DNA of 35,431 nt from contig NZ_CAJYES010000244.1 in assembly GCF_913773995.1 (NCBI RefSeq), forward strand, positions 1-35,431, read 5' to 3'. This document shows, piece after piece, positions 25,268 to 30,555 of this stretch (positions within the stretch are counted from its first letter, which is position 1; each line of letters opens with the position of its first letter). The notes below the pieces were generated by a model that was not told the DNA's origin, did no database searches, and worked only from the letters and a program-made list of their open reading frames with translations. The DNA is from an uncultured Pseudacidovorax sp. (lineage in GTDB: Bacteria > Pseudomonadota > Gammaproteobacteria > Burkholderiales > Burkholderiaceae_C). Position numbers and translations under genes: made by a program.

Positions 25268-26209
25268 ATGTCCGCCCTTCCCCTGAATGCCGCGCGGGCG
25301 GCGCCCCTGCCTTCCAACCCGCCCCCGCCCGCGCCGGGACAGCCGCCGGCCTCGCCGCCGATCATCATTCCGCCGCCGGCCGGTGACCCGCCGCCGGACG
25401 AACTGCCCGTCACCGATCCGCCCGCAGCGCCGCCCGTGGGCGATCCACCCCGCCCCGTGGCGGCGCTGGGCCGCGTGCACATGCGCCGCCTGCGCGAGGT
25501 CTACCGCTCGGCCGGCTGGCCCTGCTGCGATGTCATCGAAGTGGACCTGCTGGCGGCCGGGCTGCTGGAGCGCGTCCGCTCCGCCCTGGGCCACGAGACC
25601 GTGCGCCTGAGCGATAGCGGTCTGGCGCAGCTGGCCGGCGCCCTGGCCGGCAACCGCGGCGCGATGTCGGCCCACGAGTCGCTCGTCGAGCAGGTGGCGC
25701 GCGAGATGACCCGCGGTGGCCGCATCGCCTGGCGCGGCCTGAGCCTGCGCGCCCGCCTGGCGCCGCTGGAGCCGGACGGCCCCGCCCGCTGGTGCATCGC
25801 CCGGCCCGATGTCTTCTCGATCCGCAACACCACCGTCGAGGCCTACGCCCATCCCGTCGTGCACGAGGTCAAGGTCAGCCGCGCCGACCTGCTGGGCGAT
25901 CTGCGCCGCCCCGACAAGCGCGCCGCCTACCTCGACCTGGGCGGCGAGTGCTGGTATGTGCTGGGCAACGATGCCCGCGGCCGACCCATCGGCGGACCGG
26001 AGGACGTGCCTGCCGAATGCGGCGTGATGCTGCTGGAGGGGGCGCGGCTCACCGTCGCGCGCGCCGCGGTGCACCGTCCGGTGGAGCGTTTGCCCTTCGG
26101 TGTGTGGATGGCCCTGGCCAAGGCACAGCCCGTGGCGGGCTTCGATGACGAGGCGCAGCAGTGGCTGATGGGCGTCGAAACCGGCGCGGATCCGGCTTTG
26201 ACACGATAG
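25268..26209 (+). CDS. Pro-rich N-terminus with MmcB-like PD-(D/E)XK nuclease domain
   Basis: The 313-residue product is usually annotated as hypothetical. Residues 1-65 are mostly Pro, Ala and Asp and look disordered. From about residue 130 the pattern resembles MmcB-type DNA-repair nucleases: a SAHESLVEQVAREM helix, an Asp strand (ARPDVFSI), the ExK strand HEVKVSRADLLGDLRRPDKRAAYLDLGGECWYVLG, then ECGVMLLEGARLTVARAAVHRPVERLPFG. The Asp, Glu and Lys placement fits the PD-(D/E)XK catalytic centre, and the RADLLGDLR/PDKR segment is especially like MmcB. In Caulobacter MmcB acts with ImuB in damage tolerance. Role here is inferred only. No signal peptide; no good ribosome-binding site before ATG 25268. 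Confidence 0.72.
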   Translation: MSALPLNAARAAPLPSNPPPPAPGQPPASPPIIIPPPAGDPPPDELPVTDPPAAPPVGDPPRPVAALGRVHMRRLREVYRSAGWPCCDVIEVDLLAAGLLERVRSALGHETVRLSDSGLAQLAGALAGNRGAMSAHESLVEQVAREMTRGGRIAWRGLSLRARLAPLEPDGPARWCIARPDVFSIRNTTVEAYAHPVVHEVKVSRADLLGDLRRPDKRAAYLDLGGECWYVLGNDARGRPIGGPEDVPAECGVMLLEGARLTVARAAVHRPVERLPFGVWMALAKAQPVAGFDDEAQQWLMGVETGADPALTR

Positions 26210-26346: not shown

Positions 26347-28116
26347 ATGATTTCAAGTCTTGAATCTGCGCGGCCCCACCATTGGGAGGCCTTGCGCCGT
26401 GACCTTCGCGCCGGCGACTGGGTTGCGCCCGTCTCCGATGAGGCCGATGTGCTGCCCGGCGGTGAGCTGTCCTTCGTATTTCGCCGGGGTGGCGAGATCG
26501 CTGTGGCCACCGGCCGCTGGGGGCTGGTCACCCGGGAGACGCTTCGCGCCGGGCTGCCGGCCGCTTTGCGTGCCCGCACGGCCCTGATCCGCGACGACGA
26601 ACTGGGCAAGCTGCAGGTGCGCAGTGCCTGGCAGGGCGCGCAGCAGTGCCTGGTGCCCGTGGCCGCGCTGCAGGTGCCCGACCACCGCAACCCCGACGGC
26701 GATCCCTGGTCCACGCGCATTTCACGCCGGGACGAGGGGCCGCTGTACCTGGCCGGCCTCTGGAGCAGTTGGGCGGACGAAAACGGCGTGCGGCGCCTGA
26801 GCGTGGGCCTGCTCACCGTCGATGCCACCGGCCATCCGCTCATGGGCAACTATGGCCCGCCCGGCAAGCCGCGCCGCATGCCGGTGATCCTGCCGCGCGG
26901 CCTGGGCCGGGCCTGGCTGCTCGCGCAGGGCGAGGAGCGCGCGGCCTTCCTGCGGCCGCTGCCTGCCGCACAGCTCAGCGCCGTCTGCGTGGAAAAGGGC
27001 GGGGATGCGTTGCCCGCGGCCACGACGCCCGAAGTCGTCTGGCCGCCCGCGCCTTCGACGGAAGTGCGTCGCCAGAGCCTGCTCCTGGTGGACGACGAGC
27101 CCAGCAACCTGCAGCTGCTGCGCCTTTCGCTGCAGGCCGACTACCACCTCATCTTCGCGACCGAGGGCGGGCGCGCCATCGAGCTGGCACGCGAGCGCCG
27201 GCCCGACCTGATCCTGCTCGACCTGATGATGCCGGGCGTGGACGGCTATGCCGTGTGCGAGGCGTTGAAAGCCGACCCGGGCACCGCGCACATCCCCATC
27301 GTCTTCTGCACCGCGGTGCATGACGGCGACGCCGAAGCCAAGGCGCTGCGCCTGGGTGCGGCCGACTACATCACCAAGCCCTTCTATCCGCATGTGGTGG
27401 CGGCGCGGGTGCGCACGCACATGGCGACCCTGGGCATGCTGGCCGCACAGCAGTCCAGCCTGCGCCAGCTGCAGCGCCTGTGCGATGCGGCCGCCATGCG
27501 TGCCAATGTCAGTACCTCGCACATCCAGCGCATGAGCCAGACCGCGCATGAGATCGCGCTGGAGGCCGGTGCCCGTGCCGACTGGTGCGCCATGCTGCAA
27601 AGCTCCGCCCCGCTGCACGATCTGGGCATCGTGGCCGTGCCCGATGCGGTGCTGCGCAAGCCCGGGCCGCTCGATCCCGACGAGTGGACCGTGATGCGGG
27701 CCCATCCCTTGCTCGGTGCCCAGCTGATCGGCGACGACCCCTCGGACGTGCTCGGCATGGCGCGCGACATCGCCCTGTGCCACCACGAGCGCTGGGACGG
27801 CACCGGCTATCCATCGGGCCTGGCCGGCGAGCAGATTCCGCTGGCCGCGCGCATCGTGGCCATCGCAGACACCTTCGACGCCATGACCTCGTCGAGGCCC
27901 TACCGCCGCGCCATGAGCGAGGAGGAGGCGGCGGCCCACATCCGGGCGGGTGCAGGCGCCGCCTTCGAGCCCCGGCTGGTCGAAGCCTTTTCGCGCGCGC
28001 TGCCGCGCATCCTGCGGATGCGGCAGCGCTGGGTGTACGAGGTGGAGGGGGCGTACCGGGACGAGATCGCCGCGCCGGCGACGCTCGAAGCAGCGGACGC
28101 GCAGGACCGCCGCTGA
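26347..28116 (+). CDS. response regulator: dead SRAP-like domain + REC + HD-GYP
   Basis: The 589-residue protein has three parts. Residues 1-220 follow the SRAP (YedK/HMCES) fold: DWVAPVS, GRWGLVTRE, ARTALIRDDEL, SAWQGAQQCLVPVAALQVPD, YLAGLWSSW, LLTVDATG and RMPVILP. All catalytic SRAP residues are gone: no Met-Cys start, the YNVAP Asn is Trp25, the FYEW Glu is lost in ALQVPD, and the HDRMP His is lost. Residues 245-365 are a receiver with Asp249/250, phospho-acceptor Asp292 and a TKPF Lys. Residues 385-570 are HD-GYP, with His424-Asp425, His479-His480 and Gly487-Tyr-Pro489, predicting a c-di-GMP phosphodiesterase; the usual HDxGK Lys is Ile428. No sensor kinase is adjacent. No in-frame ATG or GTG lies upstream before a stop. 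Confidence 0.85.
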   Translation: MISSLESARPHHWEALRRDLRAGDWVAPVSDEADVLPGGELSFVFRRGGEIAVATGRWGLVTRETLRAGLPAALRARTALIRDDELGKLQVRSAWQGAQQCLVPVAALQVPDHRNPDGDPWSTRISRRDEGPLYLAGLWSSWADENGVRRLSVGLLTVDATGHPLMGNYGPPGKPRRMPVILPRGLGRAWLLAQGEERAAFLRPLPAAQLSAVCVEKGGDALPAATTPEVVWPPAPSTEVRRQSLLLVDDEPSNLQLLRLSLQADYHLIFATEGGRAIELARERRPDLILLDLMMPGVDGYAVCEALKADPGTAHIPIVFCTAVHDGDAEAKALRLGAADYITKPFYPHVVAARVRTHMATLGMLAAQQSSLRQLQRLCDAAAMRANVSTSHIQRMSQTAHEIALEAGARADWCAMLQSSAPLHDLGIVAVPDAVLRKPGPLDPDEWTVMRAHPLLGAQLIGDDPSDVLGMARDIALCHHERWDGTGYPSGLAGEQIPLAARIVAIADTFDAMTSSRPYRRAMSEEEAAAHIRAGAGAAFEPRLVEAFSRALPRILRMRQRWVYEVEGAYRDEIAAPATLEAADAQDRR

Positions 28117-28233: not shown

Positions 28234-28307
28234 GCGGGTGTAGTTCAATGGCAGAACGGCAGCTTCCCAAGCTTCATACGAGGGTTCGATTCCCTTCACC
28301 CGCTCCA
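28234..28307 (+). tRNA. tRNA-Gly(CCC)
   Basis: The 74-nt gene folds as a cloverleaf. Acceptor GCGGGTG pairs fully with CACCCGC (28296-28302), the D arm is GTTC/GAAC, and the T arm GAGGG/CCCTT encloses the TTCGATT loop. The anticodon loop is TTCCCAA, giving anticodon CCC for GGG codons; the anticodon stem has one C-T mismatch. The 3' CCA is encoded (28305-28307). It lies between the HD-GYP gene and the AAA/RloB cassette, which starts 264 bp downstream. Confidence 0.95.
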
Positions 28308-28571: not shown

Positions 28572-29840
28572 ATGCTGCTGGAATTCCGGGTTCGGAACTT
28601 TCGTTCAATCCGCGACGAGCAGGCACTGAACCTGATTGCGTCCGCCGACAAGGAACTGGCTGCAACCCACCTGGTGCCCACCGGGCTGAAGTCAGCGCCG
28701 CATGCCTTGCGCGCCGTGGTGGTTTACGGGCCCAACGCCAGTGGCAAGTCCAGCCTGCTACGTGCGTTGGACTACATGCGGGCCGTGGTGACCGAGTCGG
28801 CCACCGTCATCCAGCCGGGCCAGACTTACAACGTGCAGCCCTTCAAGCTGGACCCGGCCACGGCCCACCAGCCCAGCGAGTTCGAGATCACCTTCCTGCT
28901 GTCGGGGGTGCGCCACCAGTACGCGTTCGCGCTGACCCCACAGCGCATCCTCAGCGAGTCGCTGCTGGTCTACCGAAGCAGCAAGCCCACCCAGCTCTTC
29001 AGCAGGCACCACATCGATGGCGACGGCGACGACTACGAGTTCAGCGCCTATCTGACCGGCCCTCGCAAGCTGTGGCAGGAGAGCACGCGGCCCAATGCGC
29101 TCTTCCTGTCCATGGCAGCCCAGCTCAACAGTGAACAGCTCAGCCCGGTGTTCAACTGGATCGTGCGCAACATCACGTTCCTCCCGGCCGGGGCCACTGT
29201 GTTGCCTGACTTCACCACGGCGCTGCTGGCGACAGAGCAAGGCCGGGCCTCGATCCGCGAGTTCCTGTCCGCTGCCGACATCTCCATCGCCGACGTTCAG
29301 GCGGTCCCCCGCAAGGGCATGCAGGCCCAATGGGTGATGAGCGCCAGCGGGCTGCAAACCAGCCAGGAGGAGCGTGAGTTCTTGATGCCTGTGTTCGAAC
29401 ACAGCACGCCCAAGGGGGCCGCCAAGTTCGAGTTGCATGACGAGTCCGAAGGCACGCAGCGTCTGTATGGCCTGATTGCGCCGGTGCTGGATTGCCTGCG
29501 TGACGGACGCGTGCTGATCGTGGATGAACTGGACAGCAGCTTGCACACCCTGCTGGTGCGTCGTCTGGTCACCATGTTCCAGACGCCCGAGCTAAACCCC
29601 AACGGCGCGCAGCTGATCTTCAGCACCCACGACACCTCGCTGCTGGACCACACCCTATTCCGGCGCGACCAGATCTGGTTCACCGAGAAGGACGAGGACC
29701 AGGCGACTCGCCTGTATCCGCTGACCGACTTCAGCCCCCGCAAGCAAGAGGCCTGGGAGCGGGGCTACCTGGGCGGCCGCTACGGCGCCGTGCCCTTCTT
29801 CAGCGATTGGCCTGCGCCAGCCAAGGCCGGGCTGCAGTGA
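28572..29840 (+). CDS. AAA family ATPase of AbiL/RloAB-type defence system
   Basis: The 422-residue protein begins MLLEFRVRNFRSIRDEQALNL, typical of AAA_15/AAA_21 ABC-type ATPases. Walker A is at residues 53-61 (GPNASGKSS). Walker B is VLIVDELDSSLH with Asp318-Glu319, and the switch His353 is in FSTHD. Between them is a long insertion (about 100-290) lacking the SMC coiled-coil length. Paired with a RloB protein, it matches AbiLi/RloA-type ATPases that sense phage and release or activate the partner. I start at ATG 28572 because the family begins here; an in-frame TTG at 28524 would translate through the upstream palindrome. The stop lies 4 bp before the next start, so the pair is co-translated. 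Confidence 0.85.
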   Translation: MLLEFRVRNFRSIRDEQALNLIASADKELAATHLVPTGLKSAPHALRAVVVYGPNASGKSSLLRALDYMRAVVTESATVIQPGQTYNVQPFKLDPATAHQPSEFEITFLLSGVRHQYAFALTPQRILSESLLVYRSSKPTQLFSRHHIDGDGDDYEFSAYLTGPRKLWQESTRPNALFLSMAAQLNSEQLSPVFNWIVRNITFLPAGATVLPDFTTALLATEQGRASIREFLSAADISIADVQAVPRKGMQAQWVMSASGLQTSQEEREFLMPVFEHSTPKGAAKFELHDESEGTQRLYGLIAPVLDCLRDGRVLIVDELDSSLHTLLVRRLVTMFQTPELNPNGAQLIFSTHDTSLLDHTLFRRDQIWFTEKDEDQATRLYPLTDFSPRKQEAWERGYLGGRYGAVPFFSDWPAPAKAGLQ

Positions 29841-29844
29841 GGCG

Positions 29845-30555
29845 ATGGGCAAAGACAACCAACCCAAGCATCGGCAGGCCGCGCGGGATCTGAAGCGGCG
29901 CGCGGCCGTGCGGCAGCCCTATGAGCGACTGTTGATCGTCTGTGAGGGCGAGAAGACCGAACCGCAGTATCTGTGTGAGATTCAGCGGGCTTACCGACTG
30001 GCAACGGCGCATGTTCGGGTGCTTCACAGCCAGTTCGGGACCGAGCCGCAGCAGGTGCTGGAGTACGCGCTGGCCGTCTTCAAGAACGGCGACCGAGACA
30101 CTGGCCTCCATCCCCGCGAGTTCGACCGGATCATCGTGGTCTTCGACCGCGACGAGCACCAGAGCTATCACGCCGCACTGGCCCAGGCTGCAGCGCAGAA
30201 CGGCAAGCTTCGCAATGACAACGGGGTGGCGGTGCCGGTGCAAGCCGTGGCGTCGGTGCCCTGCTTCGAGCTCTGGCTGCTGCTGCATTTCGAGGATGTG
30301 CTGGCACCGTTGCACCGGCGCGAGGCGCTGGAGCGGCTGAATGTTCATCTGCCCGGCTATGAGAAAGGCGGGGGCGGTCATTGGGCGGCCACGCATGCTC
30401 GATTGGGCGATGCCACGGTGCGTGCGAATCGGCTGGCTGAGCTCGCCAATGCCTTTGACGGCACCCAGCCGTACACCGCAATGCACGAACTCGTCTCGCG
30501 GCTCGTGCACCTGAAAGACACTGATCCACGACTGCACGGCGGCGCCGACCCGTGA
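29845..30555 (+). CDS. RloB-family protein (TOPRIM-like effector)
   Basis: The 236-residue protein has the RloB landmarks: a basic N-terminus, LLIVCEGEKTEPQYL with Glu34, VVFDRDEHQSY with Asp101 and Asp103, and ASVPCFELWLLLHFE at residues 137-150. The Glu and DxD placement resembles the TOPRIM metal site of topoisomerases, OLD nucleases and the AriB protein of PARIS. RloB is the second gene (AbiLii) of AbiL-type abortive infection systems. The likely role is a toxic nuclease unleashed by the ATPase, but its target is unknown. A GTGAGG upstream inside the ATPase stop region may be its ribosome-binding site. A stem TCCGGCC/GGCCGGA (30567-30588) follows the stop, without a T-run. Confidence 0.87.
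   Translation: MGKDNQPKHRQAARDLKRRAAVRQPYERLLIVCEGEKTEPQYLCEIQRAYRLATAHVRVLHSQFGTEPQQVLEYALAVFKNGDRDTGLHPREFDRIIVVFDRDEHQSYHAALAQAAAQNGKLRNDNGVAVPVQAVASVPCFELWLLLHFEDVLAPLHRREALERLNVHLPGYEKGGGGHWAATHARLGDATVRANRLAELANAFDGTQPYTAMHELVSRLVHLKDTDPRLHGGADP

Follow-up and report, generated by a model that had tools for sequence, protein, structure and literature searches.

The window analysed here is a stretch of 35,431 nucleotides from an uncultured Pseudacidovorax sp. (contig NZ_CAJYES010000244.1), and the gene under study, called A, occupies positions 26347..28116 on its forward strand as an open reading frame of 589 amino acids that runs from an ATG to a stop codon. On the evidence of Pfam, phmmer and alignment, the protein begins with a SRAP-homologous domain (residues 1-217; 26347..26997) that is catalytically dead as judged by its residues. 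A variable linker (residues 218-243; 26998..27075) joins it to a receiver domain (residues 244-357; 27076..27417, by Pfam and alignment), which is followed by an HD-GYP domain (residues 373-562; 27463..28032, by Pfam, PDB matches and alignment).

The Pfam SRAP profile (PF02586, curated cut-off 27.1 bits) matches residues 28-216/217 with 47.3 bits in the whole protein and with 50.5 bits when the N-terminal 240 residues are searched alone. In a phmmer search of the PDB, the nearest solved chain by sequence was 1zn6 (residues 52-216, E=6e-25). These matches bear out the SRAP homology of the N-terminus claimed in a preliminary description of this DNA, and the motifs on which that claim was built (WGL, CLVP, AGLW, LLT and RMPVILP) align with those of 34 unfused SRAPs. 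The receiver and the HD-GYP domain that it had placed after the SRAP part were recovered as Response_reg (residues 246-355, 85.2 bits) and HD_5 (residues 380-543, 120 bits), and in the PDB the C-terminal part matched PmGH (4mcw) and PA4781 (4r8z) best. In one orthologue (L005) the reading frame is closed by a stop five codons 5' of the corresponding ATG and no other start codon intervenes, so that translation there begins with Met-Ile. AlphaFold2 models of residues 1-240 and of the full protein, built from six-sequence alignments, reached pLDDT values of 42 and 40, too low for use. At the level of sequence, we consider the SRAP-receiver-HD-GYP architecture of this reading frame confirmed.

SRAP domains are known to crosslink to DNA, and residue 2 defines them in this role. 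Aravind and colleagues defined the domain by Cys2, an Asn, a Glu and a His (PMC3765255). In YedK, Glu105 and His160 are reported as the acid-base residues, whereas the N75A replacement of the catalytic Asn, numbered Asn75, had only a modest effect; without the Cys2 thiol the protein forms no stable crosslink and a lyase-type cleavage proceeds via the N-terminal amine, for which Glu105 is described as the most important residue (PMC9436759). In protein A all four residues are replaced: Ile2 (codon 26350..26352) stands where the nucleophile Cys2 is expected, Val110 (26674..26676) in the catalytic Glu column and Gly170 (26854..26856) in the catalytic His column, while the NAR position reads L80-I81-R82 (26584..26592), with the Asn lost and the Arg of NARxE retained as Arg82. 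We take the catalytic Asn (YedK Asn75) to be that of the NAR motif, in line with the alignment. The preliminary description had reported Cys2, Glu and His as absent, as they indeed are in the window protein and in every fused homologue; it was also right that the catalytic Asn is missing (Leu80), although it had sought this residue in YNVAP rather than in NAR.

The replacements are fixed in all twelve fused homologues, six of A and six of a paralogue, B, and hence go beyond chance. The Cys2 column holds Ile in ten of them, Leu in one and Phe in one, and the Asn, Glu and His columns hold L/F, V/L/T and G, respectively; the ten intact SRAPs counted have C, N, E and H throughout. A near-copy (L042) was left out of the residue counts and the tree, and three SRAPs with no recognisable start (L008, L019, L040) were left out of the alignment. 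All twelve also lack Pro62, Arg45 and Arg51, along with N80 itself, each of them conserved among intact SRAPs; the GLxP motif has lost its Pro, and Thr85 of NARxET has become Glu. Retained in all twelve are Arg82, Arg177 of the RMP motif, Trp95, Trp142 and Trp190, and in a comparison of four sequences many Arg and Trp positions do not vary between A and B. As the replacements are common to A and B, the simplest history would be loss before duplication.

Methionine aminopeptidase removes the start Met when residue 2 is small and leaves it when residue 2 is bulky, so that Ile, Leu or Phe at position 2 should keep the start Met in place, with no free residue-2 amine at the site. With the Glu missing and the start Met presumably retained, the fused SRAP domains are predicted neither to crosslink nor to carry out the lyase side reaction. 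The fused proteins resemble YedK/HMCES (PF02586) in the order of motifs and in the profile match over residues 28-217, and differ from them in the replacement of all four defining residues and in carrying a C-terminal receiver and HD-GYP domain.

The receiver residues D249, D250, D292, T322 and K344 are present in all twelve fused proteins; we take D249/D250 to be the acidic pair, D292 the phosphorylated Asp, and T322 and K344 the other key receiver residues. The HD-GYP metal ligands (H..HD..H..HH..D) and the GYP motif are likewise retained throughout, in A as H392, H424-D425, H453, H479-H480, D508 and GYP 487-489, and this seven-ligand set is the one found in PmGH and PA4781. The paralogues part at two further positions. 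The third-metal Glu, the eighth ligand (Glu185 in PmGH), is replaced by V388 in all six A proteins and the HDxGK Lys by I428, or by Val in one orthologue, whereas all six B proteins have both and hence the full HD-GYP residue set. The definition of the HD-GYP motif given in PMC8177086 treats this Glu as the eighth ligand of a trinuclear site and describes most HD-GYP proteins as dinuclear, and work on Vibrio cholerae reports that, for some HD-GYP proteins departing from the consensus, activity could not be predicted (PMC4212101). For both reasons we mark the site of A as possibly altered and not as dead.

Searching the window's genome gave three SRAP matches: an intact SRAP (L001), A, and B (L002), the second fused protein, of 577 amino acids, whose SRAP domain scores 56.8 bits in Pfam. 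A and B occur together in six of 15 Pseudacidovorax genomes and neither is found in the other nine; in their N-terminal part, the A proteins of the six genomes are 72-100% and the B proteins 51-55% identical to the window protein. The preliminary description had called for a survey of the architecture. Outside Pseudacidovorax, the matches listed from 250 genomes of the family include no fused protein, nor do those listed from 399 genomes of the order, searched with full-length and N-terminal profiles, and none was seen in 369 genomes of the class. The full-length search of the order (E<=1e-60) and the search of the class (E<=1e-90) scored at most three candidates per genome and the N-terminal-profile search of the order at most seven, so that weak matches fall below view. 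The non-genus family matches listed with an open reading frame of at least 480 amino acids (L008, L011, L029, G059, G021) have no receiver or HD-GYP domain after the SRAP part, nor has G539, the one match of such length to the N-terminal profile from the order. A pattern scan of genome contigs with one protein, which reaches close relatives only, returned five relatives, all from Pseudacidovorax, and none of the best 5000 records from a plasmid collection covers 80% of protein A. Together these surveys give a strong hint that the fused architecture is confined to Pseudacidovorax, which carries it in the form of a pair of sister genes.

In listings of the open-licence PMC literature we found no described protein of the SRAP-receiver-HD-GYP architecture, in line with the preliminary description, and no description that ties a SRAP domain to HD-GYP, to c-di-GMP or to a response regulator, or that deals with c-di-GMP in Pseudacidovorax. 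The receiver-HD-GYP regulator is a known kind; new here is its pseudo-SRAP input domain. Paralogue B, the partly degenerate HD-GYP site of A and the orphan MHYT kinase treated below are additions to what had been described before.

Gene B adjoins a tRNA-Asn (gtt) gene in each of the five loci scanned (L057, L058, L059, L063, L064). A match from a viral collection (L102, 1185-2756) turned out to be gene B, identical to B of genome G177; it sits at the end of its contig, which also carries a recombinase-like gene. We rejected the reading of this copy as a phage gene, since B occupies the corresponding position in other genomes. A recombinase-like gene, presumably akin to serine recombinases, abuts the tRNA-Asn gene in G177 and in IMGVR_UViG_2770939510_000001, and this tRNA gene looks like a prophage insertion site there.

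Selection on the separate parts of the fused proteins was estimated as the ratio of median dN to median dS (Nei-Gojobori) over 15 non-independent pairs per paralogue. The dN/dS values for A and B, respectively, were 0.16 and 0.13 in the SRAP part, 0.14 and 0.05 in the receiver, 0.08 and 0.08 in the HD-GYP domain, and 0.58 and 0.46 in the linker. The dead SRAP domain is under purifying selection in both paralogues.

Among the best matches to the window protein in family genomes was a group of 23 stand-alone SRAPs without Cys2 (among L006-L033, and L038; for example L022, 1309-2016). Residue 2 is Ser in 14 of them, Thr in seven and Ile in two; the Asn is present in 19/23, the Glu in 12/23 and the His in a single protein. 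These proteins, of the M[ST]xHYESL type, resemble the fused forms in having no Cys2 (23/23) and mostly no His (22/23), but they are unfused (224-255 amino acids in the five with called genes) and form a separate clade (support 100/99). Where residue 2 is small, the start Met should be removed, and by analogy with YedK C2A an AP-lyase-like activity of these stand-alone proteins is therefore conceivable. In the SRAP tree, B forms one side of a branch (97/89), and the fused SRAPs group with the Cys-less clade at only 46/80; the alternative grouping with SRAPs of the MCSHY type is not rejected (AU p 0.495). Moreover, T78, P164 and, in A, P111 are common to the fused forms and intact SRAPs, unlike the Cys-less ones. 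With such support, and with diagnostic residues leaning towards intact SRAPs, descent of the fused SRAP from the Cys-less stand-alone clade is no more than a possibility; independent losses appear more likely.

The origin of the output half could be followed through its relatives in other Burkholderiales. The best-scoring non-genus regulators among the matches listed (G190, G219, G376) are 68-71% identical to B and 52% identical to A. Like A and B they consist of a receiver and an HD-GYP domain; unlike A and B they have no SRAP domain (331-333 amino acids) and lie directly 3' of a hybrid kinase, of 1224-1265 amino acids according to our own simple gene caller. The G190 kinase, the one of the three analysed with Pfam, contains MHYT, PAS, HisKA, HATPase, REC and Hpt domains. 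All six genomes that bear the fused genes have an MHYT-type hybrid kinase (1231-1236 amino acids, same gene caller; one copy is L088, 4725-8426) with no regulator beside it. The copy in the window's genome, the one of the six analysed with Pfam, has the same domains as the G190 kinase, and A and B are located elsewhere in the genome. The place of the orphan kinase is conserved in all six, between GTP-cyclohydrolase-like and MFS genes (about 1.5 kb of flank covered in five genomes and more in one). No such kinase was found at E<=1e-150 in the other nine Pseudacidovorax genomes; co-occurrence of kinase and fused genes is confounded with phylogeny, as the six and the nine genomes may be no more than two clades.

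In the kinase tree the orphan kinases fall on one side of a branch (100/100). The regulator tree separates the paired regulators, together with that of C90, from the fused ones (98/100); it is poorly resolved, with two of 14 inner branches starred and B not on one side of a branch. Genome G253 has an additional paired kinase and regulator, and each of them groups with the other paired proteins in its tree. More distant is the C90 kinase-regulator pair of the window's genome, in whose kinase no MHYT domain was matched. Judging from ancestry, the orphan MHYT kinase is the best candidate for the phosphate donor of A and B.

We give an even chance to the reading that A and B are dual-input response regulators, in which the SRAP pseudo-domain is a binding module and the orphan kinase supplies the phosphate. 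A receiver-HD-GYP regulator of the kind linked to an MHYT-PAS-HisKA-HATPase-REC-Hpt kinase in other Burkholderiales would have parted from its kinase and gained a SRAP domain whose active site had already been lost or was lost afterwards, and duplication of this fused regulator would then have produced A and B. Phosphate would pass from the orphan kinase, by way of its REC and Hpt domains, to Asp292 and so control HD-GYP activity, and the SRAP pseudo-domain would bind a ligand, a nucleic acid or a partner and thereby place or gate the protein. B would be a working c-di-GMP phosphodiesterase, and A may be a less active enzyme, one with a changed product, or a partner that regulates B.

It is also possible, if on the unlikely side, that the SRAP part only aids dimerisation, solubility or placement and contributes no signal of its own. 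All four catalytic residues are gone, and the dN/dS of the SRAP part exceeds that of the receiver and HD-GYP domain in both paralogues, in A barely so for the receiver, which would suit such a passenger. However, these same values still denote clear constraint, the domain is kept in 12/12 fused proteins, and the shared invariant Arg and Trp positions in the four sequences compared also speak against a mere scaffold.

The preliminary description had drawn from the architecture a link between DNA damage and c-di-GMP signalling, for which we have found no support so far. A scan of 400 bp upstream for LexA-like boxes (up to one mismatch) found none for any of the six A genes or for five of the six B genes; the remaining B gene has a site with one mismatch. 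As a positive control, a perfect LexA-like box is common to the intact SRAP gene and an imuA-like gene in the same genome, which sets this SRAP apart from 11 of the 12 fused genes. Nor does a LexA-like box precede the gene directly upstream of A (25268-26209). This neighbour has a proline-rich N-terminus and, by eye, a PD...EVK nuclease-like motif, and we presume some likeness to MmcB; it matched no Pfam, NCBIfam or PADLOC family. It is present in all 15 Pseudacidovorax genomes, including the nine without A, so that its nearness says little, and we rejected it as a tie of A to DNA repair.

We regard as rather unlikely the proposal that the dead SRAP domain still binds DNA, abasic or single-stranded, without a covalent bond and that it gates the hydrolysis of c-di-GMP when replication is under stress. 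Beyond the SRAP homology itself, this proposal draws on the two Arg residues of the NARxE and RMP motifs kept in all fused proteins and on the net charge of the fused domains, which at +3 to +7 (n=12) are more basic than intact SRAPs (-5 to +2, n=10). The borohydride-trapped structure of YedK C2A, reported to hold DNA as the wild type does, also indicates that Cys2 is dispensable for this binding mode (PMC9436759). Against it, besides the missing LexA-like boxes, stand the loss of Asn, Glu and His, the Glu in place of the NARxET Thr and the lost GLxP Pro in every fused protein; nor is the charge special to them, as the Cys-less stand-alone SRAPs reach -1 to +6 (n=23). Still more speculative, and doubtful in our estimate, is a combined model in which the SRAP pseudoenzyme would read abasic or single-stranded DNA without covalent attachment and the protein would weigh the kinase signal against the state of the chromosome and so set c-di-GMP, with A and B as a degenerate and an active phosphodiesterase under one orphan MHYT kinase. 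Finally, the lost catalytic residues and the partly degenerate HD-GYP site of A might be put down to a gene-model artefact or a decaying pseudogene, which is extremely improbable given the open frame in 12/12 homologues at two loci and purifying selection over all three domains.

The dual-input reading gains its interest from a SRAP domain that is kept under selection minus its catalytic residues and joined to an output of the phosphorelay type, so that the reuse of a DNA-repair domain as an input for signalling can be put to the test in the fused SRAP. With the orphan kinase, a specific candidate can be named as the donor, and in A and B a degenerate HD-GYP site can be compared directly with an intact one, each behind a sensor of the same type.

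Some other features of the window were noted. ARAGORN called a tRNA-Arg (cct) at 26912-26993, within the SRAP coding part of A, which is probably a false positive. A perfect CTGT-N8-ACAG palindrome (29389-29404) lies inside the AbiLi-like gene of a defence pair downstream of A; its meaning is doubtful because the window holds six such sites with up to one mismatch, against 9.5 expected by chance. The pair itself (28572-30555) is of the AbiLi/AbiLii (RloA/RloB-like) type, with PADLOC scores of 324 and 96 bits and Pfam matches to AAA_21 and RloB. No such pair follows A in the five orthologous loci L052-L056; in the window it is found just 3' of a tRNA-Gly gene (28234-28307).
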